Notes under the pieces: model-generated
The model's input: the letters and a program-made list of their open reading frames with translations, nothing else
Databases searched by the model: none
What the model was told of the DNA's origin: nothing
Shown here: in pieces, positions 14,334-51,070 of the stretch
Position numbering within the stretch: the stretch's first letter is position 1
Layout of the letters: each line of letters starts with the position of its first letter
Translations under genes and position numbers: made by a program
Assembly (NCBI GenBank): GCA_905182525.1
Contig: CAJJBV010000001.1
Coordinates: 186,001 to 250,000, forward strand
DNA: 64,000 nucleotides
Direction of reading: 5' to 3'
Origin: Cryomorphaceae bacterium
GTDB taxonomy: Bacteria > Bacteroidota > Bacteroidia > Flavobacteriales_D > Parvicellaceae

Positions 14334-14401
14334 GTTTTTTAATTATTTAAAAAAATAAGCAATATTATTTCTATAATAAAATTACAAAATTTTATTAATC
14401 C

Positions 14402-19079: not shown

Positions 19080-19098
19080 AAGTATTTTTTAAATAAAA

Positions 19099-19122
19099 AA
19101 AGAGCAATATTACTTGCTCTTT
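19099..19122 (-). terminator. Hairpin between two minus-strand genes
   Basis: AAAGAGCAA and TTGCTCTTT form a 9-bp stem with a 6-base loop, in an AT-rich gap 23 bases upstream of the giant gene (ATG 19079) and 26 bases past the stop at 19148. Its placement fits termination of the 19148-22381 gene. A hairpin with the same stem occurs at 22405-22431. Confidence 0.6.
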
Positions 19123-19147
19123 AAAATTACAATAATTTAATTAATTT

Positions 19148-22100: not shown

Positions 22101-22381
22101 TATGTATTACCCCCATATAATTGTATATCTAATGATGCTGAACTAGCACCGGAAGAATCTAACTGACCAAAGCATTTGGAACCAGAAGCACCCTGAGTAT
22201 TAACTATTTTATGAATAAAATCACCAGTACCGGTGTGTGAATAAATACTTGAATTAGCAGAAATACTTTCATTAGTATCTAAAAAACCGAAATTTTCTGT
22301 AAAAATTGTTTTTGTTCCTGGGTTTTGAGCATTAATAGTTGCTGTTATAATTAAAGCAAAAAGAGTTGTGTAGATTTTCAT
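19148..22381 (-). CDS. T9SS-secreted protein: carbohydrate-binding-like domains, PKD, Ig-like and DSFTW repeats (frameshifted)
   Basis: ATG 22381 gives the signal peptide MKIYTTLFALIITATINAQ. Residues ~20-190 and ~190-335 look like two jelly-roll domains (NTYEYKAFVKTIQSRVFVTLRINV; FDFNDSKEGWINGGG). Then comes a PKD domain (WLWDFGDGTTDTS, ~21290), several Ig-like 'CxGxSVxLxASGATTYSWDNG' units, two DSFTWIxGNSYTSSNNTA units and two ACNSFxWxGxTYDSxGxYTN units (20.2-19.6 kb), and a T9SS sorting domain (ISLYPNPVNDILNILS). Frames are 21362-22414 and 19186-20910, with the stretch between reading through in shifted frames. One break at ~21365 is a single surplus base before ASDSIFCLGD. Near the end two more shifts restore KKIIISH and the stop at 19148. 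Role: surface adhesion or glycan binding, inferred. Confidence 0.7.
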
Positions 22382-22404
22382 AAAATTATTTTTATTGTAT
22401 AAAA

Positions 22405-22431
22405 AAAAGAGCAATTCTATATTGCTCTTTT
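22405..22431 (-). terminator. Hairpin terminator after the 22459-26801 gene
   Basis: AAAAGAGCAAT and ATTGCTCTTTT form a perfect 11-bp stem with a 5-base loop, 28 bases beyond the stop at 22459 and upstream of the next gene's ATG at 22381. A-runs and T-runs on both sides allow intrinsic termination. Confidence 0.7.
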
Positions 22432-33530: not shown

Positions 33531-34501
33531 TTATAAAGGTTGATTATAGGATATTAAAAAATAGTCTGCAATATAGCCGAACTGACCATTTGCAGTACCT
33601 GATTGAGAATTTGTTATGTCAATTCTAATAATGTTTTGAGGATTTAAAACTCCATCTATAAGTACATTGTTACCGCTTTGATCAATAACAAAACTACTAA
33701 ATGAAAGAGTTTATTTTTGCCATTGAGAATTTGTTGTTAAACCTACTTTTAAAGCATAAGCTTCATCAATTCCCGAATCGTATATACCGTTTGCATTTTC
33801 GTCTTCAAAAACTTTAATTACAAATGCACTACCCGAGTATTGACTATTAAAAAACCCATTAAAAAAAATATTGTTGGGATCGGTTTCAGTTATTGTATTA
33901 CTATTGAAAGAAAACCTGACAGCACCAAACCAAGCAGCACTTCCTATCCCTAGAGTATTTAATGAATTATCTCCTTCAATAGTTGAATTTGAATTATTAA
34001 CTTCAAATAAATCATTGTTGGAAGAAGTAACAATTGAATATTCACTAGGATCTTCAAAGCTTGTTAATAAAATTCCTAAATCGCTAAAATCTCTTTCACC
34101 AAGAATCAATATTGAATCATATATTAAAGTATCATTTCCAGTAAAAGATAAAGTTATGTCACACCATTCAGATTTTTTAAAAAAAACTACCATTCAGAGT
34201 TACCTAACCAATAAGAATCAGATAAATCTATATTTGAACCATTCATTGTAAATTTAGCACCAGAATTTCTCCCAATAAAATCTATTTGATAATCTGCTGT
34301 AATAGAAAATAAACATTCAAATTTTACAGTATCGTTAACAGAGAAATCTACCCCTACTGGTTTATTGTTACTAAAAGGTTCTAAAACATTTAATGTTCCG
34401 TATAAAGTTTCAATAGCAGGACCAACAAATACTTCTTTTTCACAAGATATAAAGGTTAGCGAAGCAAATAAAAAAACTATATTTCTAATAATTGAAAGCA
34501 T
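33531..34501 (-). CDS. C-type lipoprotein of the outer-membrane module, copy 1 (frameshift and in-frame stop)
   Basis: ATG 34501 starts a lipoprotein signal with lipobox ISCEKE, followed by GPAIETLYG. The frame runs to ~34190, shifts by one base into 33711-34193, meets TAA at 33711-33713, and then stays open in the same frame to the stop at 33531 (TLSFSSFVIDQSG onward), ~320 aa in total. The paralogue at 46344-47426 has matching features: (V/E)GP(A/S)I..LYG after the lipobox and a GWKLISIRYSDFV segment aligning with WQK-stop-TLSFSSFV. Surface glycan binding is a guess from position and lipidation; no known domain was recognised. It lies between the B-barrel gene (2-base gap) and the sulfatase. 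Confidence 0.6.
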
Positions 34502-34503
34502 AT

Positions 34504-36199
34504 TTAAAATCTTATTTGAACTAATATAAAAAATTGATCTATTTTAAAGTTTGAATCTAATAAATTATTACTGAATTTCATTTCTTGATAATTAAAAAGT
34601 AAACTTGATTTTTTATTAAAATTATATTTCAAACCAAAAGAACTAATTTTCTGATTAATATCAAGTTGTAGTTTATCGAAGGAGGATATAATAAAATCAT
34701 CATTTCTAACAGAAAGATAATCGATTCCTGAAGCATTTATACTTTTATACCCAAAGATTAAATAGAAATTTTTAATGGCCTCCATTTCAATTCCAATGTC
34801 TAATATTGAATTATTAAAATCTACATCATCAACAAAAATTTCTGGAGAATGTTTTCTTTTTGAATTAGAATAATAAAACCCAGATTTAAAGAGAATGGTT
34901 TTATTAAAATTTAAAATTTTATTTATGTAGACATCAGAAGCTACGGAAAAAGATAAATATTTTCTTTTTTGATCAACTCCTTCACCAATTAAATCACTTA
35001 AAACAGCACATTTTCCATATAAATAAATAGTTTTAGAGGTATCATTGAATTGAATTTTTGATGAAAACCCTCTTCTGTTGGGAGTAGCTAAACCATATGG
35101 TTCAGAAACGCCAAATATTGGATTAAATTTATCTAATGAGTAATCAATTGTTCTATTATAAAAAGATTGAGATCTTATAAAGTTAATATCAGTAATTATT
35201 TCATTTACGCTAACTTCTCTGTTGTTTAAAGAGTTAGAGACCTGAGGAAAAAGATTGGGCGACATCGAGTAATTAATTCTTTTGGTTTGGGCACCAGGCG
35301 AAGAAAAATCATCACTAACTGATCGGTAATTTAATGAAATAAATAAGTTTTTTGAAAAATTAGCCTTAAATCCTAAACTCACAAACTCCCCATCTATCCA
35401 TTTATTATTTAGAGTTGAACTAGAATTTGTTAATTTAGAAAGTCCTAATTCAGAAGAAAATTCTAGATTTTTAATTTTTAATGCAGACTTTGAAGAAACC
35501 ACATGATTGTGAAAGTTTGTGTCTAAAGAAATACCTTTATTATTTGAGAATAAATCAATGTAATTAATTCCTGAATAAAAGTTTTTAAAATCATAATTAA
35601 CATCACCACCAAAAATATAAATATCGGGATTAGAAATACCATTTGAGGCAAACTCCCTAGTTCCAAAAAATTTATATGATATAGTATCATTTTTAGAAAC
35701 TGATTTATTTCCAAATACAGTTACACCTTGTCTTCTCCAATTATTACCATTATTAAAATTTTCATATCTCTGAATGTCCCTGTAGTTACTAAAAATACTG
35801 TTTTCATTAACCTCACCTTCTTCATTTGAATTCCACAAAGTAAATGGAGTCATTTGTAAATCAATATCTCCTATTTCAAAAGAAATATAGTCGTTTAAAT
35901 CACCGAAAATCAAAAGCCTTCTTAAGTTTAAATAAGAAGATGAAGTATCAAAAACTTCAAGATTTGAACCAAGTCTTAATTCACTATATAAATTCACATG
36001 TTTATTTAATTCTCCTTTAATAGCTAAGTCAAATACAATATTAAAGTCTTGAGAAATATCGTTGTTGATAGTATCTTCTTTGTCTAAATGGGCAGAAGTA
36101 GATAACGACCTAGCTAAACCACCAATATGAAATTTAGGAAATTGAGCATAAGTTAAATATGTTGTAAAAATTGATAATCGTTAATAATAATAATCTCAT
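34504..36199 (-). CDS. B-type outer-membrane beta-barrel protein, copy 1 (N-terminal frameshift)
   Basis: The main frame is 34504-35997; upstream DNA from ATG 36199 encodes a signal peptide (MRLLLLTII, then after a one-base shift FTTYLTYAQ) and joins it, ~565 aa in total. The sequence is a series of alternating polar/hydrophobic strands ending in Phe (FILVQIRF), as in BAM-inserted barrels, with no TonB plug. Motifs shared with the paralogue at 47423-49147: SNYRDIQRYENF, SSPGAQTKRINY, NPIFGVSEPYGLATPNRRGF, GYKSINASGIDYLSVR. Its ATG overlaps the A gene stop (TAATG). Known family: none recognised. A role in export, uptake or surface organisation of the polysaccharide machinery is inferred. Confidence 0.65.
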
Positions 36200-38016
36200 T
36201 AAAAAAATGCTTTAAATTCTATAGTAGACTCATATCCACTATATAAATTGTTAGAAAAATTATTGTCTGCATAACTCACTTTTTTTAGCCTGAAATATAA
36301 ACAGGATTTAGGAGTAATGCTATAATCAAAACCAATTCCAATAACTTTCCCCTTACCTTCACGAGGATTATAATTATTATCCGCATCAAGAACATCTCCT
36401 AAACCTGAAGAAGAATTTCCATTTATAAATTCTCTACCAAAGTATCCAATCACAGAAAAAGTTTTACTAATTCCAAGATATAAATCAATTTCATGAAAAT
36501 GATTTTTTAATATGGCTTTATTTGAAAATACTGGAAGTGGAGATAAAAATGATTGTAGAGAATGAAATTCTCCTAAATAAAAAAAGAAAAAATCTTTATT
36601 GAATATTTTAGATTGGTATTTTAGATTTAAAAGAAGAACATTATAGGATTTTTTAATTTCATTATTTGTTGGTTCATCAATAAATACATTTTCATAATAA
36701 CCTCTAAAAAAAGTAGTTAAGTTATTTTGAGGACCAGCGTTAGATTTAAACCTTTCAATCCTAGATAAGTATAGACCATTAACTTTATGAAAAAAGGAAA
36801 CTAAATTAGTATCATTACTTATTTCTCTAGAAACTGCGTTACCAATGTTTACTTTAACTTTTCCAATATCAAACTCTGAATTAATTATTAATCCATATCT
36901 ATTATTGGATTTCACATGAATGGGAGTCATAACTCCTCCATATGGCCTTGCACCATCCGGAATTCCTTCCCCATTAAATGAAGTTGTTTGAGAGCTGAAC
37001 GAAGGTACGGAACCGTTTATAATAGAAGAATGAATATTTACAAATCCTGGTGAAATATAGTACCCTTCAATTTTAAGAGGGAATTTAATATATTTTGAAG
37101 ACGGCTGTATACTAATTTGTGAAGCCACACCATTTTGTGAGTTTTTATCAAACTCAAAATAGTAATTACTATATGCAATTTCACTATTTATTTTCCACTC
37201 ATTTATATTCCCACTATAAGTAGAATTAAAAATTTGATTATTGAACTTAAAACCGTTTGAAAGTGCGTCAATTCCATTAGATCTTAAGTAACCCAAACCA
37301 AAATTATTTAATCTGTAATTCTTATTGATTTTAAAGGCTAAAATATGATCTAACGGAGAAATATTAAAAGGAGTTTTCCCATAAAAAACATCAATGTTAA
37401 ATTGTTTGGGAAGATCACTAGCATTAAAATGAATGCCACTAGTTTGTCTTTTTCCAAAATCAGCAGCTCTAGTGTAGTCTGATTTCTGCATGTAGTTTCT
37501 AAATTGAGTATTAATTGGCCACACGTAAGTCCACGCATTTCTATCAAAAAGAGAGTTTCTAACCTGTTTTGCTGAACTTAAACTAAAGTCACTAAACCTA
37601 AGAAAATTAATTCCTCCTGAAACTATAGTAAACTTTCCAAAATCAGTTTTAGTACCAAGTTCAATAGAAACTCCTCTCCTATTAAGTTTTAGAAAGTTTT
37701 CATCTTTAGATATACCAGAGAAAGGTTCAAAAACATATAGCTGAGTTTTAATATATCCAGACTTTTTTGAGTTCAAAGTCATTTCAAGATTCATTGTAGG
37801 GGAATTAAATTCATCATCTAAACGAAAAACACTTGATCTATTTGTATCTCCAAATAAATTTGAAACAGATCTGTTATAGGCTAAAAAACGATAGTATCCT
37901 TTTACAGAAAAATCAATGTCTTTGGTTTTTATAAAATAGTTTACTGAATTAATACTTTGAGAAAAAAATGAGAAATTTATTACACAAAATATAAATGATA
38001 TGGTTAAATTTCTCAA
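36199..38016 (-). CDS. A-type outer-membrane beta-barrel protein, copy 1
   Basis: A 605-aa protein with an intact frame and an apparent TTG start at 38016, giving MRNLTISFIFCVINFSFFSQ as signal peptide. It consists of amphipathic strands throughout, with C-terminal IEFKAFF. Motifs shared with the paralogue at 49151-51070: YRFLAYNR, SGGINFLRFS, ISPGFVNIHSS, NNRYGLIINSEFDIGKVKVN, LSRIERFKSNAGPQNNL, INGNSSSGLGD and IGIGFDYSI. No SusC plug, carboxypeptidase-like domain or TonB box is visible. First gene of a five-gene minus-strand run; a 21-bp inverted repeat sits 5 bp before the start codon. The function is not recognised. Confidence 0.65.
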   Translation of the reverse strand: MRNLTISFIFCVINFSFFSQSINSVNYFIKTKDIDFSVKGYYRFLAYNRSVSNLFGDTNRSSVFRLDDEFNSPTMNLEMTLNSKKSGYIKTQLYVFEPFSGISKDENFLKLNRRGVSIELGTKTDFGKFTIVSGGINFLRFSDFSLSSAKQVRNSLFDRNAWTYVWPINTQFRNYMQKSDYTRAADFGKRQTSGIHFNASDLPKQFNIDVFYGKTPFNISPLDHILAFKINKNYRLNNFGLGYLRSNGIDALSNGFKFNNQIFNSTYSGNINEWKINSEIAYSNYYFEFDKNSQNGVASQISIQPSSKYIKFPLKIEGYYISPGFVNIHSSIINGSVPSFSSQTTSFNGEGIPDGARPYGGVMTPIHVKSNNRYGLIINSEFDIGKVKVNIGNAVSREISNDTNLVSFFHKVNGLYLSRIERFKSNAGPQNNLTTFFRGYYENVFIDEPTNNEIKKSYNVLLLNLKYQSKIFNKDFFFFYLGEFHSLQSFLSPLPVFSNKAILKNHFHEIDLYLGISKTFSVIGYFGREFINGNSSSGLGDVLDADNNYNPREGKGKVIGIGFDYSITPKSCLYFRLKKVSYADNNFSNNLYSGYESTIEFKAFF

Positions 38017-38020
38017 AAAA

Positions 38021-38041
38021 TTAGTGTTAATTATACACTAA
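38021..38041. promoter_or_regulatory. Candidate locus-wide operator, copy 2
   Basis: Arms TTAGTGT and ACACTAA are perfect 7-bp inverted repeats around TAATTAT. The site lies in the divergent gap between the A barrel gene (start 38016) and the sulfatase gene (start 38075). It matches 26889-26909 at 19 of 21 positions and 51073-51093 at 16 of 21. Confidence 0.55.
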
Positions 38042-38074
38042 TATAAAACTATAAATATAATTTTAAAGGAATTA

Positions 38075-39655
38075 ATGGTAAGAAAATTAAAATTTATTAT
38101 TGTATGTTGTTTTTTAATAGTTCATTATGAATCTGAATCTCAAGAAAAACCAAATATATTATGGATTGTTTGTGAGGACCAATCCCTGTTTTTCTCTAGC
38201 TATGGAGATAGCATAGCCAAAACACCAAATATTGATGAATTGGCATTAGAAGGAACGGTATATGAAAACTTTTATGCAGTCTCACCTGTTTGCGCCCCTA
38301 GTAGAAGCAGTATAATAACAGGAATGTATCCAACAACAATTGGAACTCATAATATGCGTGCATTTAAAAACAGTAGTGATAGTATAAATCATCATACAAA
38401 TCTTCCTATTTATAGTGCAGTTGCAAAAAGAAAAGTTCAATTTTTTACAGAAATTCTTCGAGCCAACGGATACTATTGTAGCAATAATTCAAAGCAGGAT
38501 TACAATATGGAGATGTCACCTTTAGCATGGGATGAAAGTAATAAAGATGCTCATTGGAGAAATAGAAAAGAAAATCAACCATTTTTTTCTGTATTTAATT
38601 TTAATATCTGCCATGAGTCTAAAATCTGGAAGAATCATAAACAACATCCTTCAGAAGAAATTAATAAAATTATTCTTCCTCCTTTTTTTCCTAAAAATGA
38701 TATTATTAAAAATGATTTCGTTACCAATTATAAAAATATTGAAAAACTTGATTTTCAAATAGGAAAATTAATTAATCAACTAAAAAATGATGGTCTTTAC
38801 GATAAAACAATAATTTTCTTCTACTCTGATCATGGCGGACCATTTCCAAGATATAAAAGATCAATTTACGATACGGGTTTAAAATGTCCGTTAATTATAA
38901 AATGGGATGAAAAAACAAATGGCAAAAGAAATAATCAAATGATTAGTTTTATTGATTTAGCTCCAACTATTATAGAATTGTCAGGTGGAAAAGCACCTAA
39001 AAATATGGAAGGAGTTTCATTTTATAATTCAGAAAATAGAGATTATATTTTTGCAGCAACTGACAGGTTTGATGAATTTACTGACAGAAGAAGATGTATA
39101 CGAAGCAAAAATTTTAAACTCATATTTAATTATGATACCACCTCATCTATTATGCAACCCGTCTCTTATAGAAAAAATATGAAAACTATGAATGTCTTGG
39201 ATTCATTAAATAATATAAATGGTCTTAGTGATAATTTAAACAATTGGTATAAAAAATCAAAAAGAAAATATGAGTTATATGATCTGAAAAATGACCCATA
39301 TGAACTTAATAATCTATATGGTAATATGGATTACAAAAATATATTTGATGAACTTAATAAAAAACTTTCTAAATGGATAAATAGTTCCGATTATGGAAAC
39401 ATGAGTGAAGTTAAAATGTTGAAAGAAATGTGGCCAAAAGGTGTAAAACCCATATTAAATGAACCATCAATAAGTAAATTAAATAATGGAACTAAAATAA
39501 ATTCTAATAACTTAAATTCTTCAGTTGGATGGAGAAATAATAAAAGTGGTGAATGGGAAATTTATCAAGAAAACGATATAATTAATCCAACTAATAATTT
39601 CGATATTATAGTTTTTAAACCAGGTTATGGCTCTATAATTAAATCCTTTAATTAA
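38075..39655 (+). CDS. S1 sulfatase, heparan N-sulfatase (SGSH)-like
   Basis: A 526-aa protein with an intact frame and a signal peptide (~residues 1-22, ending ESQ). Metal site in NILWIVCEDQS; formylglycine motif VCAPSRSSIITG with C73; TTIGTHNMR; IFFYSDHGGPFPRYKRSIYDTG; FIDLAPTIIELSG; ELYDLKNDPYELNNLYG. This combination resembles the SGSH-like S1 subgroup common in marine Bacteroidota. The last ~60 residues are a beta-rich tail with no T9SS YPNP motif. It stands alone on the plus strand, divergent from the A-B-C module and convergent with GH3. Desulfation of extracellular oligosaccharides in the periplasm is the likely role. Confidence 0.88.
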   Translation: MVRKLKFIIVCCFLIVHYESESQEKPNILWIVCEDQSLFFSSYGDSIAKTPNIDELALEGTVYENFYAVSPVCAPSRSSIITGMYPTTIGTHNMRAFKNSSDSINHHTNLPIYSAVAKRKVQFFTEILRANGYYCSNNSKQDYNMEMSPLAWDESNKDAHWRNRKENQPFFSVFNFNICHESKIWKNHKQHPSEEINKIILPPFFPKNDIIKNDFVTNYKNIEKLDFQIGKLINQLKNDGLYDKTIIFFYSDHGGPFPRYKRSIYDTGLKCPLIIKWDEKTNGKRNNQMISFIDLAPTIIELSGGKAPKNMEGVSFYNSENRDYIFAATDRFDEFTDRRRCIRSKNFKLIFNYDTTSSIMQPVSYRKNMKTMNVLDSLNNINGLSDNLNNWYKKSKRKYELYDLKNDPYELNNLYGNMDYKNIFDELNKKLSKWINSSDYGNMSEVKMLKEMWPKGVKPILNEPSISKLNNGTKINSNNLNSSVGWRNNKSGEWEIYQENDIINPTNNFDIIVFKPGYGSIIKSFN

Positions 39656-39658
39656 TAT

Positions 39659-41968
39659 TTAGAAATTATATCTATCTACCAATTCTAATGAACCTTTAAT
39701 TAAAGATTTATTTTTTGAAGATCCACCTACCATAAATTCAAAATTTCCTTTTTCAACACATAAATCCATATTTAAATCATAAAAAGCAAGATCTTCAATT
39801 GGAATGGAGAAGTTTATTCTTTTCGACTCTTTAGCCTTTAAACCAACTCTTTTATATTTCAATAGTTCTTTTACTGGCCTTGTTACAGAACTGTAACTAT
39901 CACGGAAATATAATTGAACAATCTCCTCACCATAAAACTCACTATTATTTGTTAGAAGAAATGAAACGTTAATTAAAGACTTTTCACTATTGGACATTTT
40001 AACATCTAATTCTGAATAATTGAAGTCTGAATAGCTTAACCCATGTCCAAATGGATATAAAGGAGTGATTTTTTCTTCGGCATAATCATGAAAGTATTGA
40101 GAGGGTTTGTGATTGTATATCATCTGAAGCTGACCCACACTTCTAGGAAATGTTAGGGGAAGTTTCCCACTAGGATTAACATCTCCAAAAACTATTTCCC
40201 CAACTGCTTGTCCACCCAAACTGCCAGGCTCCCATGCTTCGATAATGGAGTTTACATTTTCGGCAATCCAAGGCTCTGCAATAGGTTTTCCATTTACATA
40301 AATTACAATTAACTCGTTATTTAATTTATTTAAGCTCTTAACTAAGTTTAATTGATTTCCAGCTAAATTGATATCAGCGCGTGCCATATTTTCACCTGCA
40401 GTTTTTTTCTTTTTAAGGTGTCTTAAAGAATTATCTCCTACAACTACAAAGACATAATCATAATCTTGAGCGACTTCTACAGTTGATGAAATATCTAAAG
40501 CTGTAATATTTAGAATATCACTGTTAGAATCGTGAAAATCTACTTGAAAACCTTTCTTAGAAGCAATCGATTTAATTCCCTCAAAAACAGTAATTACATT
40601 TTCTTTTGGTTGTGGCTTTGTCCAATCACCAAGAATTGAATGATTGTTGGCATTAGGTCCAGTTACCAATATTCTTGTTTTTTTTAATTTTTTAAGAGGT
40701 AAAATTCCTTGATTATTTTGAAGTAAAACAATTGATTTACGAGCAATTTCTAATGAAGTATTTTGGTGCTCTTTAGTAAATATATTTTCATCAACTTCTG
40801 CTAAATCAATAAAAGGGTCTTCAAACAGCCCTAATTTAAATTTGGCTAATAATATTTTTCTTGCAGACTCATCAATTCGTTCTTCAGAAATTCTATTTTC
40901 ATTTACTAGCTCAACTATATATTCTAAAAAATAAGGCCCATGCATATGCATATCCATACCAGCATCCACAGAAAGAAAGGATGCCTCTTTAATATTCTCT
41001 GCGGTTTTATGAAGTGTATGAATACGCTCAATATCCATCCAATCACTTACAATAAAACCTTTAAATTCAAATTCGTCTCTTAAAATATCTTTCATTAAGT
41101 GTTTATTCATGTGGCAAGGAACTCCATTTAATTCGTTATGTGCAGTCATAATGGAGTAAACCCCAGCTTCTACAGCTTTTTTAAATGGCTTAAGATAAAT
41201 TTCTCTCAAATTTCGTTCTGAAATATCCATTGGTGAAGAGTTTAAGCCGTTTATAGGCTCCGAACCAGCAATAAAGTGCTTAGCGCAGGCAATTACTTTG
41301 TTGGTTTCCTGTAGGCCCTTTATCATACTTACACCCATATTGGATACTAAAAGTGGATCTTCGCCAAATGTTTCACCTACTCTACCCCATCTCGGATCTC
41401 TAAGAACATCAATATTTGGTGTGAAAGCCCAATGAGAACCAGCGGCTCTAACTTCTTTTGCTGTTTGTATTCCAACTTTATAAGACAAAGTATCTGTAAA
41501 TGAAGCAGAAATCGATATTGGAGAAGGATAAACCGTAGTCCCTTTAACCATTCCATTTCCGTGAATAGCATCAATTCCAATTATTAAAGGAATTTTTAAA
41601 CGAGATTTTAAAGCTAGTGTTTGTAAAAGATTAGATTCTTTAGCTTGTAAAACATGTAAAAAAGAACCAATTTTCCCATCTACAACCATTTGAGCAATAT
41701 CTTTTTTTAAAAAACCTTTGTAAGAGGCCTTTGAATCACTATTTAAAATCTCTTGGGTCAATGAGGATTCATTTTCAGATTTCAAATAATTGAGTCCAAC
41801 ATATTGACACATTTGAGCTACCTTTTCTTCAATAGTCATTCTAGACAACAAGTCCTCCACTCTTTCGGTGTCACTAAAACTACTATCCAAATAAATGGGT
41901 TTAGATTCCTTATTAAAACTTAGTGTAAAAAAAATTATAATGGAAAAAATTAAAATTTTAAACTTCAT
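39659..41968 (-). CDS. Glycoside hydrolase family 3 enzyme
   Basis: A 769-aa protein with an intact frame and an N-terminal signal (MKFKILIFSIIIFFTLSF). The GH3 N-domain carries RVEDLLSRMTIEEKVAQM, GIDAIHG, FTPNIDVLRDPRWGRVGETFGEDP and KHFIAGSEP, with nucleophile D309 in GFIVSDWMD. The alpha/beta C-domain follows (ILVTGPNANN, WEPGSLGGQAVGEIVFGDVNPSGKLPLTFPRS), then a fibronectin-III-like tail. The layout is that of the beta-glucosidase/xylosidase group, which removes single sugars from non-reducing ends. It is the last gene of the seven-gene operon beginning at 51070; its start overlaps the upstream GH-A stop by one base. It probably finishes oligosaccharides released by the other enzymes. 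Confidence 0.92.
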   Translation of the reverse strand: MKFKILIFSIIIFFTLSFNKESKPIYLDSSFSDTERVEDLLSRMTIEEKVAQMCQYVGLNYLKSENESSLTQEILNSDSKASYKGFLKKDIAQMVVDGKIGSFLHVLQAKESNLLQTLALKSRLKIPLIIGIDAIHGNGMVKGTTVYPSPISISASFTDTLSYKVGIQTAKEVRAAGSHWAFTPNIDVLRDPRWGRVGETFGEDPLLVSNMGVSMIKGLQETNKVIACAKHFIAGSEPINGLNSSPMDISERNLREIYLKPFKKAVEAGVYSIMTAHNELNGVPCHMNKHLMKDILRDEFEFKGFIVSDWMDIERIHTLHKTAENIKEASFLSVDAGMDMHMHGPYFLEYIVELVNENRISEERIDESARKILLAKFKLGLFEDPFIDLAEVDENIFTKEHQNTSLEIARKSIVLLQNNQGILPLKKLKKTRILVTGPNANNHSILGDWTKPQPKENVITVFEGIKSIASKKGFQVDFHDSNSDILNITALDISSTVEVAQDYDYVFVVVGDNSLRHLKKKKTAGENMARADINLAGNQLNLVKSLNKLNNELIVIYVNGKPIAEPWIAENVNSIIEAWEPGSLGGQAVGEIVFGDVNPSGKLPLTFPRSVGQLQMIYNHKPSQYFHDYAEEKITPLYPFGHGLSYSDFNYSELDVKMSNSEKSLINVSFLLTNNSEFYGEEIVQLYFRDSYSSVTRPVKELLKYKRVGLKAKESKRINFSIPIEDLAFYDLNMDLCVEKGNFEFMVGGSSKNKSLIKGSLELVDRYNF

Positions 41969-43800
41969 TATTTTTTGACTTTTATGATTTTGAATTGTGA
42001 CGAAGACTGCGAATTAAATAATTTTAAAATGTAAATACCATCTTTTAAAAATTTTGTATCTATAGATTCTTTAGAGGATTGTAAAACCAATTTACCATTA
42101 ATATCAAATATTTTTAAATAGTCATATTTATACTCTTGAGTAATATTTAGAATTTCATCAAAAGGGTTTGGATATAATAATAGATCTATTTCACTTTCTT
42201 TAATATTGTTATTCAATAAATAATCTGAATTAGCAATAAAGTTTACTGAATAAGGTTTTAATTCAAATTTATTATTTCCATTGACAGGTCTATAATATGA
42301 TGGGATTGAAGAGTAGTTTTCTGGCCCTCCTTCTACGAAATTACTTGTCTGACCATTTACAAATATCTTTTTGTCAGTTTCGTTATTTGCATAAACTTCG
42401 TACCAATAATAATTATATCTCATGGTATCAATTCCGAAATCTAAATCAACAGTTTTAAAATTGGAAGAATTATTCACAAGAACAACTCCCCTAGCACCAG
42501 AATTGAAAGTAGAAGCATAAGACTTTACAGACAAATCACTAGAATATGACCAGACCATACGATCACCCATAAACTGCTGTAAAAAATGATAAATATAAAA
42601 TACTGGTCTTGGTGAGTGATCAGCTAAGACAGGGCTGTTTCTAGCAGTCATACCATGATCTCCTCCATAACTATCTAAACCGTTTTGGAAACTCCATAAA
42701 ATAGAAGCTGCAAATCCATTTTTTATTTGCTCAGCTAAAGCTTGGGCAATAAAAATTGCATTGGCCATAGATATTTCTCTTTCGCCAGTTTTTGAATTAA
42801 ATTCAGTCATTGCTATTGGATAATATCCAGATGGCTTATTTGTATAATTTAAAACCATATCATTAACGTTATTCTTGTCTTGCTGAACTTCATTAAGAGA
42901 GTTTAACATTTCCTGATAAGTAACATTATTAGGATTATTTTTTCTTCTAAAATAATCGTGAACAATTAAAAAATCTGCTTTATTTTCAACTTTTTGAAGT
43001 ACTTGTTTTGACCAATTATTATAAACTCCGTCATTAGGAAATAATACTGCTCCAATTTTTATAGTAGGATCAGCAGCTTTCATAGAATCTGCAAAAACAT
43101 TAAAAACATCACCGTATTTAGTTCCATCAATAGTATCTCCGTTTACTATATATCCTGCTTGCCACGAACCATAATTTTCATTACCTACTTCCCAATATTT
43201 AATATTTGCACCCAAAGTTTGATTCATATGTCTTACAAAATTTGCCGCATATGATGCTGCAGTCTGAAGTGGATTTACTGATGATCCATATCTAGCATAC
43301 GAAGCATTGACAGCAATGATACCCGTTCCGTTAGTAGAATCTAAAATCTGAAGAAAATCATCAGGACTAATTCTCCATCCAGAACCGTCAATAAGATCAT
43401 TTACAGTAATTTCAGAATCGTTTAAAATTGAAGATGGAATATTTCCATCCCAGAAAAATTGATTTGAACCATTACCACCTGGATATCTTAAGATAGATTT
43501 TCCTAAATTTTTAATATTACTCATAAAATCATTATCGTTGATAACAGACTCTCCTAAAAAATGAGTCAAGTTTGTTCCAAAATGTGATGGTAAAACATCG
43601 GCTATAACATTAGATGTATTAATATTAATAGTAACAGTCGGAGAAGAAGATATTGCTGGTTTTAAATCAGTATTTGAAGACGGATTAAAAGTTCTTGGCT
43701 CCCAATCTTCAAAAAATGTATTTAACTGTGAATTAAAAGCAAGAAAAAAAGTATTAAAAAAAAATAAAAAAATTAATTTTTTACTATAGTTATTTGACAT
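41968..43800 (-). CDS. T9SS-secreted clan GH-A glycoside hydrolase, arabinofuranosidase-like
   Basis: ATG 43800 is preferred because MSNNYSKKLIFLFFFNTFFLAFNSQ is a good signal peptide; an ATG at 43827 would overlap the GH2-like gene. ~610 aa, frame intact. The barrel motifs are HFGTNLTHFL, SILRYPGGNGSNQFFWDG, KYWEVGNENYGSWQAGY (acid/base Glu) and PIAMTEFNSKTGE (nucleophile Glu). After a C-terminal beta domain a T9SS type A domain follows (LLLYPNPFDEILNITQ, KIIKVKK), so the enzyme is exported to the surface or medium. It is paralogous to the enzyme at 27034. GH51/GH39-type relationship is inferred from motifs; family and substrate are not settled. Confidence 0.8.
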   Translation of the reverse strand: MSNNYSKKLIFLFFFNTFFLAFNSQLNTFFEDWEPRTFNPSSNTDLKPAISSSPTVTININTSNVIADVLPSHFGTNLTHFLGESVINDNDFMSNIKNLGKSILRYPGGNGSNQFFWDGNIPSSILNDSEITVNDLIDGSGWRISPDDFLQILDSTNGTGIIAVNASYARYGSSVNPLQTAASYAANFVRHMNQTLGANIKYWEVGNENYGSWQAGYIVNGDTIDGTKYGDVFNVFADSMKAADPTIKIGAVLFPNDGVYNNWSKQVLQKVENKADFLIVHDYFRRKNNPNNVTYQEMLNSLNEVQQDKNNVNDMVLNYTNKPSGYYPIAMTEFNSKTGEREISMANAIFIAQALAEQIKNGFAASILWSFQNGLDSYGGDHGMTARNSPVLADHSPRPVFYIYHFLQQFMGDRMVWSYSSDLSVKSYASTFNSGARGVVLVNNSSNFKTVDLDFGIDTMRYNYYWYEVYANNETDKKIFVNGQTSNFVEGGPENYSSIPSYYRPVNGNNKFELKPYSVNFIANSDYLLNNNIKESEIDLLLYPNPFDEILNITQEYKYDYLKIFDINGKLVLQSSKESIDTKFLKDGIYILKLFNSQSSSQFKIIKVKK

Positions 43801-43813
43801 ATCGAAAATAAAT

Positions 43814-45091
43814 TTATTGACCTTCAACTCTAAAAGGAATATTTGCTACGGAAGATTGATTAATTTCATTTTTAATAAAAACAAACATTCTGTAAAACCC
43901 TTTTTTATTTGGCACATTAAAAGTTAAACTACTTTCTAACTGTTTAACTTTGATAAATTCTAATTTATCTGGTGATTTCTGATAATCACCTCCACCTTTT
44001 GTAGAAAATGTTTCAGGGTATAATTGAAAATCAAAATACAAGCTGTCATTATTATTTTTGTTAAAAATAAATTCTAGATTGACCTCCTCATTTTTAATGA
44101 AAACATGGTTTTTTTGCCAATTACCCCCATTTAACTTGATTTTCATAATGCTAGGTGCTCTTTTTTCTGGCCATTGACCTTTCCAACAATATTCCATTAC
44201 ATCAACAGCCTCCGTAGGATTACCGTTACTTAAATACATACCATGCCAAGTCGCTGTAGATTCTTGTTTTTGGCCCCATAGAAAACAATAAGAACCTAAA
44301 CATTTTTCTCTATCACCTTCAATAAAATTTTTATATCTTTTTAATCTTTGATTAGCTTTAATTCCGTTAGTTGGCTCAATTTTAGCACCCCAAGAATTAA
44401 CTTTGGCTTCAAATGGTCCATTAACTCCCCACTCTGTGACTATATAAGGTTTTTCCCAACCATATCTTCTTATGTTTAGGTTTGCATTTACAATAGATCC
44501 GTAGACATTAATACCAAGTATATCAATACTTGGACAGTATTTTTTAATCATAAAAACCTTTGATGGATCTAATCCAGCAATAACAGTCATAGTTGGATGA
44601 TTAGGATCAACTTTTTTTATGAACTTAGCAATTTCTTCAATTGTTTCCCAAACTTTAAAATTGGAATATTTTAAATCAACCTCATTACCAATCCCCCAAA
44701 CTAGCAAAGATGGATGATCTTTTAATTTCAAAATTTTCATCTTGAGTAATTCAATTTGGGCTTTTACTTTATACTCATCATTATAATTGAATCCACTTCT
44801 TTCTTGTCCAACCCAAAGACCTAAACAAACTGACAAATCGTATTTTAATGCAGAATCTAGAAGTTTACTTTTATTACTACTCCAAATTCTTATAGAGTTA
44901 CCACCAGATTCTTTTACCTTTTTAAAATTATTTTTAGCACCAGCTCCCTTAATATAGTAAGGCTTGTTGTCTCTTAATAATTCAAATCCAGAATCGGTTT
45001 CAGAAATAGTAACTTTTGAGGTTTGAGAGAAAACAGATGAATAAAGAAACACCTGAAAAACGATCAATATATTAATAAAAAATTTCATCAT
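43814..45091 (-). CDS. GH2-type TIM-barrel glycoside hydrolase without the usual sandwich domains
   Basis: A 425-aa protein with an intact frame and signal peptide ending SSVFSQ. A barrel begins with LRDNKPYYIKGAGAKNNF and NSIRIW. LLVWGIGNEVDL carries the likely acid/base E137, and PYIVTEWGVNGPFE the nucleophile E220. Typical GH2 enzymes are 600-1,000 aa with two N-terminal beta-sandwich domains; here the barrel starts almost directly after the signal, and a ~110-aa beta domain follows at the C-terminus. The gene shares one base with the upstream lipoprotein gene and precedes the GH-A gene by 13 bases. Endo or exo activity cannot be told from sequence. Confidence 0.75.
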   Translation of the reverse strand: MMKFFINILIVFQVFLYSSVFSQTSKVTISETDSGFELLRDNKPYYIKGAGAKNNFKKVKESGGNSIRIWSSNKSKLLDSALKYDLSVCLGLWVGQERSGFNYNDEYKVKAQIELLKMKILKLKDHPSLLVWGIGNEVDLKYSNFKVWETIEEIAKFIKKVDPNHPTMTVIAGLDPSKVFMIKKYCPSIDILGINVYGSIVNANLNIRRYGWEKPYIVTEWGVNGPFEAKVNSWGAKIEPTNGIKANQRLKRYKNFIEGDREKCLGSYCFLWGQKQESTATWHGMYLSNGNPTEAVDVMEYCWKGQWPEKRAPSIMKIKLNGGNWQKNHVFIKNEEVNLEFIFNKNNNDSLYFDFQLYPETFSTKGGGDYQKSPDKLEFIKVKQLESSLTFNVPNKKGFYRMFVFIKNEINQSSVANIPFRVEGQ

Positions 45092-46335
45092 TATTTAAAC
45101 CATTTTGTAGGGTTATCTGGATCTCCTCTAAACTCTATTAATTTAAAGTCAACAATTTCAAAATTAGAAGTTTCTAAAATTCTAAACCTTAACTCTTTAA
45201 TTTTGGTCCAATTAACAGAATTAAAATTTTTAAAAGACTTAATAGGAACGAAAATTTCGAATGTAGTTTCATCTAATTGAACAATATTATTTTCATTTAT
45301 AAGTATGGAAATGTTCCTAGGCTTACCTAAATAAGAGACAAGATTAATTTTAATTTTAGGTACTTTTTTTCCAATAATTTTAAAATTCAAGGCTGATGTT
45401 AAATATACTTCAGATAAATCAGCAGATTCCCATTTATTAAAAGGGAAACCAAATGAATTCCATTTTTTATCTTTATTTTCCGAATCGTAATTTACAGAAA
45501 GTGATAATGAAACATTCAACTCTGGTATAAAATTATCGTCATTTAAAGTAGTATTTGATTTTATAGAATTTGATTTTGTTTTGAACTTAAAATTACTTGA
45601 ATAGTTTTCATTTACACCCCACCAATATTTTTTTTCACTACCAAGATTAATAGGTAAGGTATTGAATTTTTTAGTGAAAGTTTCAGTGCTTATTTTGTAA
45701 GGATGGTTGTAGGGAACTAGTTTAATATCATCAATATGAAAATTTCCTTTTTTCATTAGTTGAACCCTTAGCTCTTTGATATTGGAAATTTTAACTCCTT
45801 TTTTATTATGATTAAATGTAGACAATGGCAATGATACCTTTCTCCATTTTTGGTCAACAACTCCATCTTCCATTCCTAAAATATTCACTTTTGAGAAACA
45901 TTGTTTGCCAGAATAATCTGATAAACCAAAAAGCATTGGAATATTATAAAACTCTCCTGAATTAGATCTAATCATGAATTGAATTGCACTATTTTCAAAT
46001 AAAGGGGTTAAATTTTTAGATTTGAAGTTTCCCCACTTAAAACCTAAACCAAGCCATTTGCAGTTTTTTGTTTTTTCCCATTTTAAATGAAGGTGGTCTT
46101 TACCAGAAAAATTATTTATAGTATCGAAAGTAATTTCTTTACAAGGGTGTGTTTTCATTCCAAAAACACCAGTTTTATCACTATCAGTAAAAATATCTTT
46201 AAATGGGAAACTTAAAAAAGGATCTTCTATATCTTTCTCTACAACTGTATCGTAAAGGCTAACAGTTTTCATAGAATTACATGAAAAAAACAGCAATAAA
46301 GACCAAACTAAAATATATTTATTTAATTTATTCAT
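45091..46335 (-). CDS. Two-domain candidate glycan-binding lipoprotein
   Basis: A 414-aa protein with an intact frame and a lipoprotein signal with lipobox FFSCNS. Two jelly-roll-like modules: residues ~45-210 (HLHLKWEKTKNCKWLGLGFKWGNF, a KWRKVSLPLSTF strand and GNFHIDDIKLVPY) and ~250-405 (KWNSFGFPFNKW, IKELRFRILETSNFEIVDFKLIEF). The pattern 'IKELR.....(G/S)NF.I.D.KL' occurs in both, so they arose by duplication. They resemble CBM11/CIA30-like galactose-binding folds. Located in the operon between the C-type lipoprotein and the GH2-like enzyme, it is a good candidate for the surface glycan-binding role that SusD-like proteins play elsewhere. No binding data can be read from sequence. Confidence 0.65.
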   Translation of the reverse strand: MNKLNKYILVWSLLLFFSCNSMKTVSLYDTVVEKDIEDPFLSFPFKDIFTDSDKTGVFGMKTHPCKEITFDTINNFSGKDHLHLKWEKTKNCKWLGLGFKWGNFKSKNLTPLFENSAIQFMIRSNSGEFYNIPMLFGLSDYSGKQCFSKVNILGMEDGVVDQKWRKVSLPLSTFNHNKKGVKISNIKELRVQLMKKGNFHIDDIKLVPYNHPYKISTETFTKKFNTLPINLGSEKKYWWGVNENYSSNFKFKTKSNSIKSNTTLNDDNFIPELNVSLSLSVNYDSENKDKKWNSFGFPFNKWESADLSEVYLTSALNFKIIGKKVPKIKINLVSYLGKPRNISILINENNIVQLDETTFEIFVPIKSFKNFNSVNWTKIKELRFRILETSNFEIVDFKLIEFRGDPDNPTKWFK

Positions 46336-46343
46336 TAACCATT

Positions 46344-47426
46344 TTAGTTTTTATTCCATGTATCACCAACAAAGCCCGTTATTACATCAAAAAATGCTCT
46401 GTTTTCAGTAAATATTATATGATCAAAATCAGTTCTAACCATCCTGTCAAAATTTTCCTCGCACTGGGCACTTGCTCCACTAGAGGGACAAGCTTGACAA
46501 GCAATTCTCATCCCTTTAATATCTTTGGGGTTTTTTGCAAATGTTACACCAGGTGATGAATTAGTTGCTACAAAATCTGAGTAACGAATAGAAATTAATT
46601 TCCATCCATCCCAATCTATATATATTTTAAGCTTATATACCTCTTCATTATTATCAAAAATAGTAGCTACATCTGCAGCTCCTCCCGAATTAAATGCCGA
46701 ATCTGATTCTGAAATTAAAATATTCATAAATTGACCTGTATGTAGGCCTACTGTATCGGAAAGAATTCCTAGATTTAAATAAAAATCCTCGGCAGATGCT
46801 GAAATTGGAGAAGATGAATAATCTAATTTTAAATCTATTTTTCCAAGTGCCCAATCAAAATTTATTTTACCTCCCATTTGGAAATAGTAATCACCTAATA
46901 AAGGTTGATCATCTGCAATTACAAATGTTTGATCGGGATTAATTTGTGGTTTTATATAACCATCAACAGGAAACCCATTTTCAAAATCAGCAACAATATA
47001 ACCATCATCATATAACTGAGTACCGGTGATTAAAACTGTATCTCTAAGCGTGTCTGGTTGATATAAAAAAGTTAATTCTAAAGCACAATTTTCTTCTATG
47101 AAAAAAGGGAATTCAGAAGCACTACCATCCCAAAAATTAATATTTGAATCTAGAATATTTGAGTTGCCAGTTATAATTTTTTTAGCATTAGAAACAAGCC
47201 CTGTTATAGAAATTTTCCAATCAACTATTTTACCAAATTCACAACTAAACTTAGTTACTTCATTATTAGAAAAATTAGGGTTTTTATTGCTAACTAACAA
47301 GCTAGCAGTCCCATCAAAATCACCATATAATTCATTAATTGATGGACCTTCTGATTTCTCTTTAGTACAACTAAATATAGTGAATATTGAAATTATTGTT
47401 AGTATATATATGTGTCTTGTCTTCAT
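46344..47426 (-). CDS. C-type lipoprotein of the outer-membrane module, copy 2
   Basis: A 360-aa protein with an intact frame. Lipoprotein signal with lipobox FSCTKE, then EGPSINELYGDFDG, the same opening as the C copy at 34501. The remainder is beta-rich: residues ~20-120 form an Ig-like segment, and ~130-350 a jelly-roll-like part (ADFENGFPVDGYIKP, YYFQMGGKINFDWALGKIDL, KIYIDWDGWKLISIRYSDF). This layout recalls surface carbohydrate-binding lipoproteins. It overlaps the B gene by 4 bases and precedes the next lipoprotein gene by 8. Four Cys near the end (IACQACPSS, QCEEN) could form disulfides. Confidence 0.65.
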   Translation of the reverse strand: MKTRHIYILTIISIFTIFSCTKEKSEGPSINELYGDFDGTASLLVSNKNPNFSNNEVTKFSCEFGKIVDWKISITGLVSNAKKIITGNSNILDSNINFWDGSASEFPFFIEENCALELTFLYQPDTLRDTVLITGTQLYDDGYIVADFENGFPVDGYIKPQINPDQTFVIADDQPLLGDYYFQMGGKINFDWALGKIDLKLDYSSSPISASAEDFYLNLGILSDTVGLHTGQFMNILISESDSAFNSGGAADVATIFDNNEEVYKLKIYIDWDGWKLISIRYSDFVATNSSPGVTFAKNPKDIKGMRIACQACPSSGASAQCEENFDRMVRTDFDHIIFTENRAFFDVITGFVGDTWNKN

Positions 47427-49147
47427 AACTTTACAGAAAAAATAAATAATAATCGTTGATATTTAAAATCGGAGATATTTGAATCATTAAAATTCGTTCC
47501 CCAAAGATTGTATTGTAAATTTAAATAAACATTGGGTCTAAATTTATATTTTAAACCTGCAATGTACATATTATCATTTTGGTTGTAATTAATGGGTGTA
47601 AATCCTTGTATCATCCCATAAGCCGATCTTGTAGTTAAATACTCATTACCCTTAGAATTAAAGCTTTTATAGCCTAATTGAATAAACAAATCATCTAAAG
47701 TTTCTATAGATGAGGAGAAATTTAATTGACTTGAACTTAAGTTCACATTTTCAGCATTGGATGAAGATCTTTTAGTTGTCTCATCTACCATAGAAACTGA
47801 AACACTAAGTTTTTTATTTAGTCCCAAAATTTCGTGTAAATTAAACTTTGTATTTCCAGAAAACAGAACAAAATTTCTTTTTAAAAGTGAGCCCTGTCCA
47901 ATAACTTCTTCAAAATATGAACTATTAAAATTCAGTTCTAAAAATTTATTTTTACTAATTAAATTTAACTTAGCAAAAACTCCTAATCTGTTTGGTGTAG
48001 CATCTCCAAAGGGTAGTGAATTTGAATAAATTGGGTTAAAACCCATAAGGTTGGTTGATAAATCCTGATTATATATCGTAGGATCAGAAATAATATCAAA
48101 AATTGAAATTGGTCTTTGTGATTCATCATTAGAATATGTAGAATAAATTGATGGAGTGTTATCATTAAAATTAATTCTTCTAGTTTGTGAACCAGAACTT
48201 CTGAAATTTGGATCTACATATCTTCCGCCAAAAGAAAAACTTAATGAAGAATCTTTTTTACTATAAGAAGAAGAGAATTCACTAAACATACCGACAGTGT
48301 AATTTGTCAAAGAATCAAACTGCAACCAACTCCTTTCAGAAAAACCACCCTGAATATTATGTTCTAATTTTGCTTTAGGAGTATTATAGTGATAGTTTAG
48401 ACCACCTTGAATTACTGGATTTCTAACAGAAATATTAATGTTTCCTGTTGAGGGAATCTCAAATAAATTAATGTAATTAGACTCGAATGTTAGATTTGAA
48501 TTTATTTTAGAAATTAAAGATCCCCCTGAAAGTAGCATATCACTTATTCTATTTAGGTTTGTAATATATTGATTTCCTCTAGGCCTAGTAATAAAAAAAT
48601 CAAATTCAAGTGATTTTATAAACCGGTCAAATTCATAAGAAAAGTTTGTTTGAATTCCTTGAAGTCTCCATCTGTTGTCCATAAAAAAATTCTCATAATG
48701 AACAATATCACGGTAACTAGAAACAAAATCACTATTAAAAAAAGGCAACTCTTCGTCGTAGTTATGTAAAGTGAATTTATTTTGTTTTAAATACATATCA
48801 CCAATAGTAAATTTAATTCTGTTCCCCAAAACGCCTTTTGCTGTTAGTTGTCTTACTATAATATTAGTACCTGAACCAAAAAAACTTCCAAATTGATTGC
48901 TAATTCTTAACTGAGCAAAAACCTCTATTTCTTTTATGGGATTTATGTGAGTATTTAAGTCGATTAAATTATATCCTGATGAAAAGTTTTTGGTGGAAGT
49001 TGTATCTAAATCAATTTTATTTACATCTCTTGAAAAAAAAGATCTTGTTAATCCACTAAATCTTATTTTTTCATCTTGCTGAGCTACTGTAAAGATTTGT
49101 ATTCCTATGAATATAACAGTAAATAGTATGGAATTTATTTTCATCAT
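47423..49147 (-). CDS. B-type outer-membrane beta-barrel protein, copy 2
   Basis: A 574-aa protein with an intact frame and signal peptide ending FTVAQ. Amphipathic strands run to the C-terminal FIFSVKL. Motifs shared with the copy at 34504-36199: SSYRDIVHYENF, WRLQGI, RSSGSQTRRINF, GFNPIYSNSLPFGDATPNRLG, IGQGSLLKRN and GYKSFNSKGNEYLTTR. It starts 3 bases after the A gene ends and overlaps the C gene by 4 bases. No TonB-dependent receptor plug is present, and no known family was recognised. Because this copy is undamaged, it supports the frameshift in the other copy being an error or recent. Confidence 0.65.
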   Translation of the reverse strand: MMKINSILFTVIFIGIQIFTVAQQDEKIRFSGLTRSFFSRDVNKIDLDTTSTKNFSSGYNLIDLNTHINPIKEIEVFAQLRISNQFGSFFGSGTNIIVRQLTAKGVLGNRIKFTIGDMYLKQNKFTLHNYDEELPFFNSDFVSSYRDIVHYENFFMDNRWRLQGIQTNFSYEFDRFIKSLEFDFFITRPRGNQYITNLNRISDMLLSGGSLISKINSNLTFESNYINLFEIPSTGNINISVRNPVIQGGLNYHYNTPKAKLEHNIQGGFSERSWLQFDSLTNYTVGMFSEFSSSYSKKDSSLSFSFGGRYVDPNFRSSGSQTRRINFNDNTPSIYSTYSNDESQRPISIFDIISDPTIYNQDLSTNLMGFNPIYSNSLPFGDATPNRLGVFAKLNLISKNKFLELNFNSSYFEEVIGQGSLLKRNFVLFSGNTKFNLHEILGLNKKLSVSVSMVDETTKRSSSNAENVNLSSSQLNFSSSIETLDDLFIQLGYKSFNSKGNEYLTTRSAYGMIQGFTPINYNQNDNMYIAGLKYKFRPNVYLNLQYNLWGTNFNDSNISDFKYQRLLFIFSVKL

Positions 49148-49150
49148 TTT

Positions 49151-51070
49151 TTAAAAAAGTATTTTTAACTCTAACATTGTTTCCGATCCTTCAATATTAT
49201 TAAGAATGAAATTTGGATCGTAATATTTATAAAGATTATGTCTTAAAAACAACATAGCTCTTTTTCCTATTTTGTAATCTACTCCAAAGCCAATTAATCT
49301 ATTTCTTTGATTTCTAGAAAAATTATTTGGATTAAACTTTTTAATTCCTAAGGTTTCAAATAACACATTAATAGGACTTCCACCCAAAGTGCGGTCTTGA
49401 TCTCCCAAGCCAGTAGAACTGTTTCCAATAACTCTTTCAATTCCATAGGTGAAAATTAAGCTGGTATTAGTATTTAATTGAAAATTGAAATCAAATTCCT
49501 GAGAAAAAATGCTGATAAAAGCATCTAAATTATACTGAGGTAAAACATTTATTTTTTTCTGACATGAATTAAATCGTGACAAAGAGAAAATATAAAATTT
49601 ATGTCCTTTTATCATGTTTTTATACTTAACTTGAAATTCAACAGTATTAAAAAACTTTTTAAAGTTTGACTTACCTAATGCATTAGTGTCAGAAATTTCA
49701 ACTTCTTCAAAAATATTTCTAAAGGTTGTATTTAAAGAATTGTAAGGGCCCCAATTTTGTCTAAATAATTGTAGTCTAGATAGTGTTTCAGTATTAATGT
49801 TATATCTATATGAAAGTGCTGCATCCGAAGTATCAATTTCAGTAAAAAAACCAATTCCACCATTAATATTAAATTTCCCAAATGAATGTTCTGCATTAAT
49901 CGATATTCCTTGTCTATTATTTGTATAAGTTCCTAAACCAATAATTGGACTTTGAAATGGAGTTCTAACTGTAGTACCAATACCAGAAATATTTGGAAAT
50001 ACTTCTGAAACTGTAGTATTTAAAAAGTTGCCAGTAAGATTAACAAACTGGGGAGAAATTCTGTAAATTTGTAAATCTAATGGAGTTTTATAAGATTTTG
50101 AAGTTTTAAAATTAAATATAATGGCCTCTCCATATTTCAAATCATACTCCGGAGAAGAATAATTTCCTAATGCAGTCTCTAATTTTAAAGAAAATTTCTT
50201 CCATTTTTTAGAGAATTCCGTAGTGTGAATTATGTATTGTTTTAATTCGTTTGTTTTGGGATTAATAGATGCATAGGATTTCAAAAAGTTATATGCAATG
50301 TTAAGCTTCTTATTGAATTTTTTGTTAACCCTGAGACATCCTGTGAAGTTGTCAGAATTTGTAAGACTGGACCTATTAAGAGAACTTTTACCTACAACTC
50401 CTTTAAACGATAATTTATAAGGTAAATTTTGTCCACTGAAAAAAAATCCTTGAAAAGCTCTACTTCCATAACGAATACCTTGGTCAATTAATCCATTTTT
50501 ATAATAGTTTTCATACCTAGCAATTGGAGTTCTGTTTAATGCTGTTGATGGTCTTCTATGAAAAATACTTGTTCTGTTAAATGATCTATTGCCCCAAACA
50601 GTTAATCTACTTTGCCTATACCAATTAACTCCACCTGAGCTAAATTTAAATTTCCCAAACTTGGTATTAAAGGATGTTCTTAAATTTAAGCCTAACTGTA
50701 ATGTTAAATCACTATTGCTTGCAATTGAGGGGCCTTTATAATTACTGTTAATCATTAAATCTGCACCAAAAGAAATATTATCTTTTGTTAAACCTTTAAG
50801 TCTAAGAAGTAACATTGGTTGTCGATAAAAATCTCCGGAAACGATGTCTAAAGTTTTACCAGAATTTCCAGGAAAAGTGTTTTTTTGATTTCTAACATAA
50901 CCTAAAAACCTATAAGAACCAGAAAATGAAATAGGAACTGGAGACTTTCTTAAATTTTTAACATTACTTGAAAATACTTCACTGTAATTATCCTGTGAAA
51001 ATGTATGTTCAAAAAAGAAAATTAAAATTAATGCTATGAAAAATTTAGATAAACTATATAACTTACTCAT
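49151..51070 (-). CDS. A-type outer-membrane beta-barrel protein, copy 2
   Basis: ATG 51070 is preferred (MSKLYSLSKFFIALILIFFFEHTFSQ as signal peptide); a GTG at 51088 is also in frame. ~639 aa, frame intact. Amphipathic strands, C-terminal LELKILF. Conserved with the copy at 36199-38016: YRFLGYVRN, SGGVNWYRQS, ISPQFVNLTG, NNRQGISINAEHSFGKFNIN, LSRLQLFRQNWGPYNSL, IGNSSTGLGD and LIGFGVDYKIG. First gene of the seven-gene operon A-B-C-binding lipoprotein-GH2-GH-A-GH3. The candidate operator at 51073-51093 lies immediately before the ATG, as it does for the other copy. A family name is not available. Confidence 0.65.
   Translation of the reverse strand: MSKLYSLSKFFIALILIFFFEHTFSQDNYSEVFSSNVKNLRKSPVPISFSGSYRFLGYVRNQKNTFPGNSGKTLDIVSGDFYRQPMLLLRLKGLTKDNISFGADLMINSNYKGPSIASNSDLTLQLGLNLRTSFNTKFGKFKFSSGGVNWYRQSRLTVWGNRSFNRTSIFHRRPSTALNRTPIARYENYYKNGLIDQGIRYGSRAFQGFFFSGQNLPYKLSFKGVVGKSSLNRSSLTNSDNFTGCLRVNKKFNKKLNIAYNFLKSYASINPKTNELKQYIIHTTEFSKKWKKFSLKLETALGNYSSPEYDLKYGEAIIFNFKTSKSYKTPLDLQIYRISPQFVNLTGNFLNTTVSEVFPNISGIGTTVRTPFQSPIIGLGTYTNNRQGISINAEHSFGKFNINGGIGFFTEIDTSDAALSYRYNINTETLSRLQLFRQNWGPYNSLNTTFRNIFEEVEISDTNALGKSNFKKFFNTVEFQVKYKNMIKGHKFYIFSLSRFNSCQKKINVLPQYNLDAFISIFSQEFDFNFQLNTNTSLIFTYGIERVIGNSSTGLGDQDRTLGGSPINVLFETLGIKKFNPNNFSRNQRNRLIGFGVDYKIGKRAMLFLRHNLYKYYDPNFILNNIEGSETMLELKILF

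Follow-up and report, generated by a model that had tools for sequence, protein, structure and literature searches.

We analysed a 64,000-nt stretch of a Cryomorphaceae bacterium genome (C1:186001-250000 of 2.19 Mb; in the following, the window) with regard to a three-gene outer-membrane module, i.e., two β-barrels (A, B) and a lipoprotein (C), that occurs there twice. Sequence and profile comparison shows homology of the module to CHU_1276-1277-1278 from Cytophaga hutchinsonii. We consider it likely that A-B-C is an outer-membrane glycan-acquisition module of this kind, used in place of a SusC/SusD pair.

Each copy heads a minus-strand operon. The first runs from 51088 down to 39659, where A2-B2-C2 are followed by the lipoprotein S, a GH158 enzyme, a GH51-like enzyme and a GH3 enzyme. 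The second runs from 38016 down to 30165, where A1-B1-C1 are followed by a sulfatase and a protein with three CBM4/9 domains. The module genes are the following; here and below, positions count within the window, while the prefix "C1:" marks contig coordinates.

49151..51088, minus strand: A2, outer-membrane barrel of the CHU_1276 family (plugless barrel in the AlphaFold2 model; BLASTP match to CHU_1276)
47423..49147, minus strand: B2, outer-membrane barrel of the CHU_1277 family with about 22 predicted strands (AlphaFold2 pLDDT 87.6; BLASTP match to CHU_1277)
46344..47426, minus strand: C2, lipoprotein of the CHU_1278 family (lipobox IFSC; C profile vs. CHU_1278 by hhalign)
36199..38016, minus strand: A1, barrel paralogue of A2 (30% identity to A2; member of the A family)
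34504..36196, minus strand: B1, barrel paralogue of B2 (open frame 34504-35997 plus an upstream frame)
33531..34501, minus strand: C1, lipoprotein paralogue of C2 (reading frame interrupted near 34186, at a homopolymer)

The original prediction, made from the sequence of the window, had named these six genes. Their order and strands are confirmed, and its proposal of an alternative surface glycan-handling complex without SusC/SusD is supported by the results below.

Homology to the Cytophaga locus

A2 matches CHU_1276 with a BLASTP E-value of 3e-42 (hidden Markov model (HMM) of A: 4e-111) and B2 matches CHU_1277 with 3e-68 (HMM of B: 1.2e-150). For C, CHU_1278 is found by the HMM (E 1.9e-41) as well as by profile alignment (hhalign 99.7%, E 1.5e-26). 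The respective C. hutchinsonii locus (genome G1344) encodes A with 747 aa, B with 606 aa, C with 380 aa, a 375-aa protein and a GH9 enzyme. We equate this locus with CHU_1276-CHU_1280 because the 375-aa protein carries Y253, F256 and F343, i.e., the residues mutated in CHU_1279 (PMC12016534), because GH9 follows, and because the genome holds exactly two SusD, which matches the same study.

CHU_1279 is described as a surface protein with tandem carbohydrate-binding modules (CBMs) within the chu_1276-1280 'atypical PUL' (polysaccharide utilization locus; PMC12016534), which is reported also for C. aurantiaca and Sporocytophaga myxococcoides. According to that report, chu_1276, 1277, 1279 and 1280 are needed for cellulose use in C. 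hutchinsonii. In the A2 operon, the CBM30-like S occupies the slot of CHU_1279; in the A1 operon, this slot holds a sulfatase.

For A, B and C, no function family was found in Pfam, NCBIfam and PDB sequences. Given their homology to chu_1276-1278, the three are nevertheless not wholly undescribed.

Gene order and distribution

In all fetched loci, B directly follows A for each of the 154 distinct A genes (154/154; median gap 1 nt), and C directly follows B for 144/147 B genes with room (median gap 3 nt). The co-occurrence of A, B and C is far beyond chance. Where no C gene was called (three loci), this looks like an artefact of gene calling or of a frameshift. The A-B-C order is co-conserved beside glycoside hydrolases (GHs) or sulfatases in several classes of Bacteroidota, as the original prediction had anticipated for other genomes.

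We find A in 48/120 related genomes and in 6/395 genomes phylum-wide, four of the latter outside the class. B is present in 51/396 and 44/384 genomes of the class (two overlapping samples), in 13/146 genomes of the order holding Cytophaga, and in 4/401 genomes of another order, where one is a weak match with stops. For the scan of named genomes, a closer A1 subset was used, the full A1 alignment being too divergent.

Sequence and predicted structure

All motifs quoted for the gene pairs are present: SSGLGD/STGLGD in the A pair, DFSSPGAQTKRIN/NFRSSGSQTRRIN in the B pair, and GPAIETLYG/GPSINELYG after the lipobox in the C pair. Both C and S carry lipoboxes. A1 and A2 share 30% identity, B1 and B2 31%. 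A2 starts either with GTG at 51088 or with ATG at 51070.

With regard to coordinates, the predicted gene order holds, with corrections to the reading frames of C1 and B1. C1 breaks near 34186 at TTTTTTTTAAAAAA, a homopolymer, and does not form a single open frame; at the start of B1, ~65 codons lie in a different frame. These breaks are probably assembly indels because intact counterparts (323 aa for C1) exist in the same-genus genomes L041, L043 and L058. We also considered C1 as a pseudogene and judged this unlikely, given the break at a homopolymer and nearby genes (among them SusC and GH3 of a neighbouring locus) that look split too.

In the AlphaFold2 models, A2 (pLDDT 79.7) and B2 (87.6) form barrels that have about 22 strands or more and no plug domain, in line with the barrels expected by the original prediction. 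Strand numbers were counted by the author from DSSP lines. A2 has no match of its own in Pfam/NCBIfam; across the three families, the best match is the generic barrel model PF13505, which a few members reach. All Foldseek matches in the PDB were generic barrels, AlgE among them, whose TM stayed below 0.5, and we therefore assign no porin family. The profiles of A and B align with each other (hhalign 98.4%), but similarity of barrel strands can produce such a score, and we do not claim common descent of A and B.

SusC/SusD in the window and in other carriers

Neither a TonB plug (PF07715) nor SusD was found by Pfam within the window, in agreement with the original prediction. In the source genome as a whole, there are 18 plug domains and a single PF07980 SusD. 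The nearest SusD lies at C1:259436 and the nearest plug at C1:263390, i.e., beyond the window end (C1:250000). Together with a GH3 gene, they form a separate locus 9-15 kb past the window end and ~22 kb from A2, with mostly unrelated opposite-strand genes in between. A SusC/SusD pair just outside the window had been named as speaking against the module if A-B-C were not co-conserved elsewhere. Such a pair does exist nearby, as a separate locus, while the missing co-conservation is not what we observe. In this neighbouring SusCD locus (L079:10433-14701), SusC and GH3 look frame-broken, which suggests assembly indels.

Among 68 module carriers, PF07980 SusD is present in 40 and without a match in 28. 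In none of the carriers (0/68) does a PF07980 SusD lie within ~15 kb of a module found here, the closest match being ~19-22 kb away. This speaks in favour of the expectation that such loci lack SusCD in other genomes, too. In one small order, all 8/8 genomes have modules (23 in all, 1-5 per genome) and no PF07980 match. In another genome (G1356, loci L295-L297), B occurs eight times, again with no match to PF07980.

Enzyme cargo and module phylogeny

The remaining features of both operons and their surroundings are:

45091..46335, minus strand: S, CBM30-like lipoprotein (Pfam CBM30 E 1.1e-13; CBM30 structures by profile; lipobox FFSC)
43814..45091, minus strand: GH158 endo-β-1,3-glucanase-like enzyme (9oro_A GH158 E 3.5e-88; 6pal E 1.5e-59)
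41968..43827, minus strand: GH51-like clan GH-A glycosidase with a type IX secretion system (T9SS) sorting tail (GH51 arabinofuranosidase structures E 2e-10; Por_Secre_tail E 1.4e-11)
39659..41968, minus strand: GH3 glycosidase (PF00933/PF01915/PF14310)
38075..39655, plus strand: sulfatase, divergent from A1 (PF00884 E 1.2e-32; motif CAPSR)
31912..33477, minus strand: sulfatase of the A1 operon (PF00884 E 1.5e-51; motif CGPSR)
30165..31877, minus strand: three CBM4/9 domains and a T9SS tail (PF02018 three times, PF18962)
28753..30168, plus strand: sulfatase (PF00884 E 3.2e-42; motif CGASR)
27383..28750, plus strand: GH51-like glycosidase fragment from the family of 41968-43827 (upstream portion lies out of frame)
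51136..52335, plus strand: FGE, formylglycine-generating enzyme maturing sulfatases (PF03781 E 8.6e-77)

The plus strand thus holds two more sulfatases, FGE and a second GH51-like gene. The motif C-x-[PA]-S-R is kept in all three window sulfatases, and FGE adjoins A2-type modules of relatives as well. The CBM30-like S is probably a surface glycan-binding protein. The endoglucanase of the A2 operon belongs to GH158, an endo-β-1,3-glucanase family (PMC7157763), and not to GH9; the A1 operon has none. Because the A2 module heads the GH158/GH51-like/GH3 operon and the A1 module the sulfatase/CBM4-9 operon, the window probably targets sulfated algal glycans, of which at least one would have a β-glucan-like backbone.

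Across the fetched loci, GH158-A-B-C-S-GH3 is the most common cassette; GH16, an SSS symporter and an HTCS-like or NrtR-type regulator often accompany it. Other modules are accompanied by GH9, by GH18 or NagB with PIG-L, by GH97 with GH13, by GH5 or GH27, or by sulfatases. Assigned from these enzyme families, the predicted substrates are β-1,3-glucan (GH158/GH16/GH3), cellulose (GH9), chitin (GH18/NagB) and α-glucan (GH97/GH13).

Module phylogeny tracks cargo. On the A+B tree (109 rows), cargo changes 32 times compared to 63.8 times when shuffled, and distances among A correlate with those among B (r 0.87). The tree was computed with FastTree and has long branches, such that deep splits are uncertain. 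The window's A1 and A2 are placed in separate supported clades, on which ground we rejected a recent tandem duplication.

Some further observations concern the same loci. A ~276-aa protein without Pfam/NCBIfam match is conserved directly after GH3 in GH158 cassettes (e.g., L054:16595-17425), and chitin-type modules show two tandem C-like lipoproteins (L196, L215, L231, L265-L269, L287, L290). Elsewhere in the window, 8448-12571 encodes two outer-membrane barrels that look alike, of which one weakly matches Porin_O_P; the gene between them (9726-11249) looks, by eye, like an M14-type carboxypeptidase. Repetitive fragments of T9SS-type secreted proteins, apparently frame-broken, fill 12579-22414.

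Proposed function and alternative explanations

In the proposed mechanism, lipoproteins C and S would hold the glycan at the cell surface, and surface and T9SS-secreted enzymes would degrade it. Oligosaccharides may then cross the plugless barrel pair A and B by facilitated diffusion rather than by TonB-driven uptake, and FGE-matured sulfatases together with GH3 would complete product breakdown in the periplasm. Homology, fixed gene order, lipoprotein signals, predicted barrels and cargo association are shown, while we infer the TonB-free transport step and the A-B-C complex; a role in transport or growth in this genome is putative. Several points weigh against this account. S has no detectable homology to CHU_1279 (hhalign 6.6%). 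The absence of a plug was read from Pfam and from AlphaFold2 models built from 39-row alignments, and the absence of SusD was judged by PF07980 alone. Furthermore, loss of CHU_1277 lowers cell-bound β-glucosidase activity (PMC5553014), which could reflect enzyme presentation rather than transport.

The latter finding is also what would be expected if A and B served as scaffolds, anchoring surface enzymes and binding proteins in the outer membrane, with sugars entering via other porins. That CHU_1279 variants with damaged binding still restore growth (PMC12016534) fits this, too. On the other hand, the same study describes chu_1276 and chu_1279 mutants as growing poorly on low glucose, where no surface enzyme is needed, and the two full-size barrels are always conserved as a pair. 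We thus regard a pure scaffold role as unlikely. Still less probable is that A and B export a cell-made polysaccharide as AlgE does, with hydrolases editing the product. AlgE is among the Foldseek barrels, but all of these matches are weak. The cargo is catabolic (GH9, GH97/GH13, GH18, NagB, SSS symporter, HTCS-like regulator), the annotated neighbours include neither a glycosyltransferase nor a synthase family, and the Cytophaga homologues are required for growth on cellulose.

We give equally little credence to an ordinary SusCD PUL with A-B-C as accessory genes. A SusD and a TonB plug indeed follow 9-15 kb past the window end; yet the distance to A2, the unrelated genes in between, the carriers without any PF07980 SusD and the lack of one near any module argue against it. 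Glycan acquisition through A-B-C in place of SusC/SusD is therefore our preferred reading. A wider generalization is, in our view, evenly balanced, namely that A-B-C forms a second general class of outer-membrane glycan importers in Bacteroidota, independent of TonB plug and SusD, with substrate-specific clades and full replacement of SusCD in whole lineages.

Implications

Glycan use by Bacteroidota is commonly deduced from SusC/SusD pairs, on which PUL finders rely as well. With a plugless alternative this widespread, many loci would be overlooked in genomes from freshwater, marine and soil habitats. The founding member has already been described (cellulose, Cytophaga), and the module looks like a little-known alternative to the SusC/SusD importer. 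New are the homology of the window genes to the Cytophaga module, the phylum-wide range, the substrate-linked clades and the presence in PF07980-negative lineages. In this view, the cellulose system of C. hutchinsonii, so far puzzling, is one branch within a family for which several substrates are predicted and to which the window contributes a sulfated-glycan branch with two modules side by side. Carriers of a single module without SusD offer a direct test case for glycan uptake without a SusCD complex.

Comparison with known systems

The closest known system is the chu_1276-chu_1280 PUL, which has homologous A, B and C in the same order, a surface glycan-binding protein (SGBP)-like protein and a glycanase downstream, and no SusCD within the locus. 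In contrast, the window has GH158/GH51-like/GH3 and sulfatases where Cytophaga has GH9, its S resembles CBM30 and shows no detectable homology to CHU_1279, and it carries two diverged modules side by side.

The β-1,3-glucan locus of Bacteroides uniformis consists of SusC, SusD, SGBP-B, GH16, GH158 and GH3 (PMC7157763). It resembles the modules in GH158, GH16, GH3 and the surface glycan-binding lipoprotein. Compared to such a canonical SusC/SusD PUL, the modules have neither the SusC plug/barrel nor SusD, but two plugless barrels and lipoprotein C instead.

Finally, Gram-negative sugar porins and AlgE/Occ-type barrels are likewise single-chain outer-membrane β-barrels, and A and B are predicted without a plug as well. 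A and B differ in being larger than the matched porins (about 22 strands or more), in their low TM-scores and in that each is obligately paired with another barrel and a lipoprotein.

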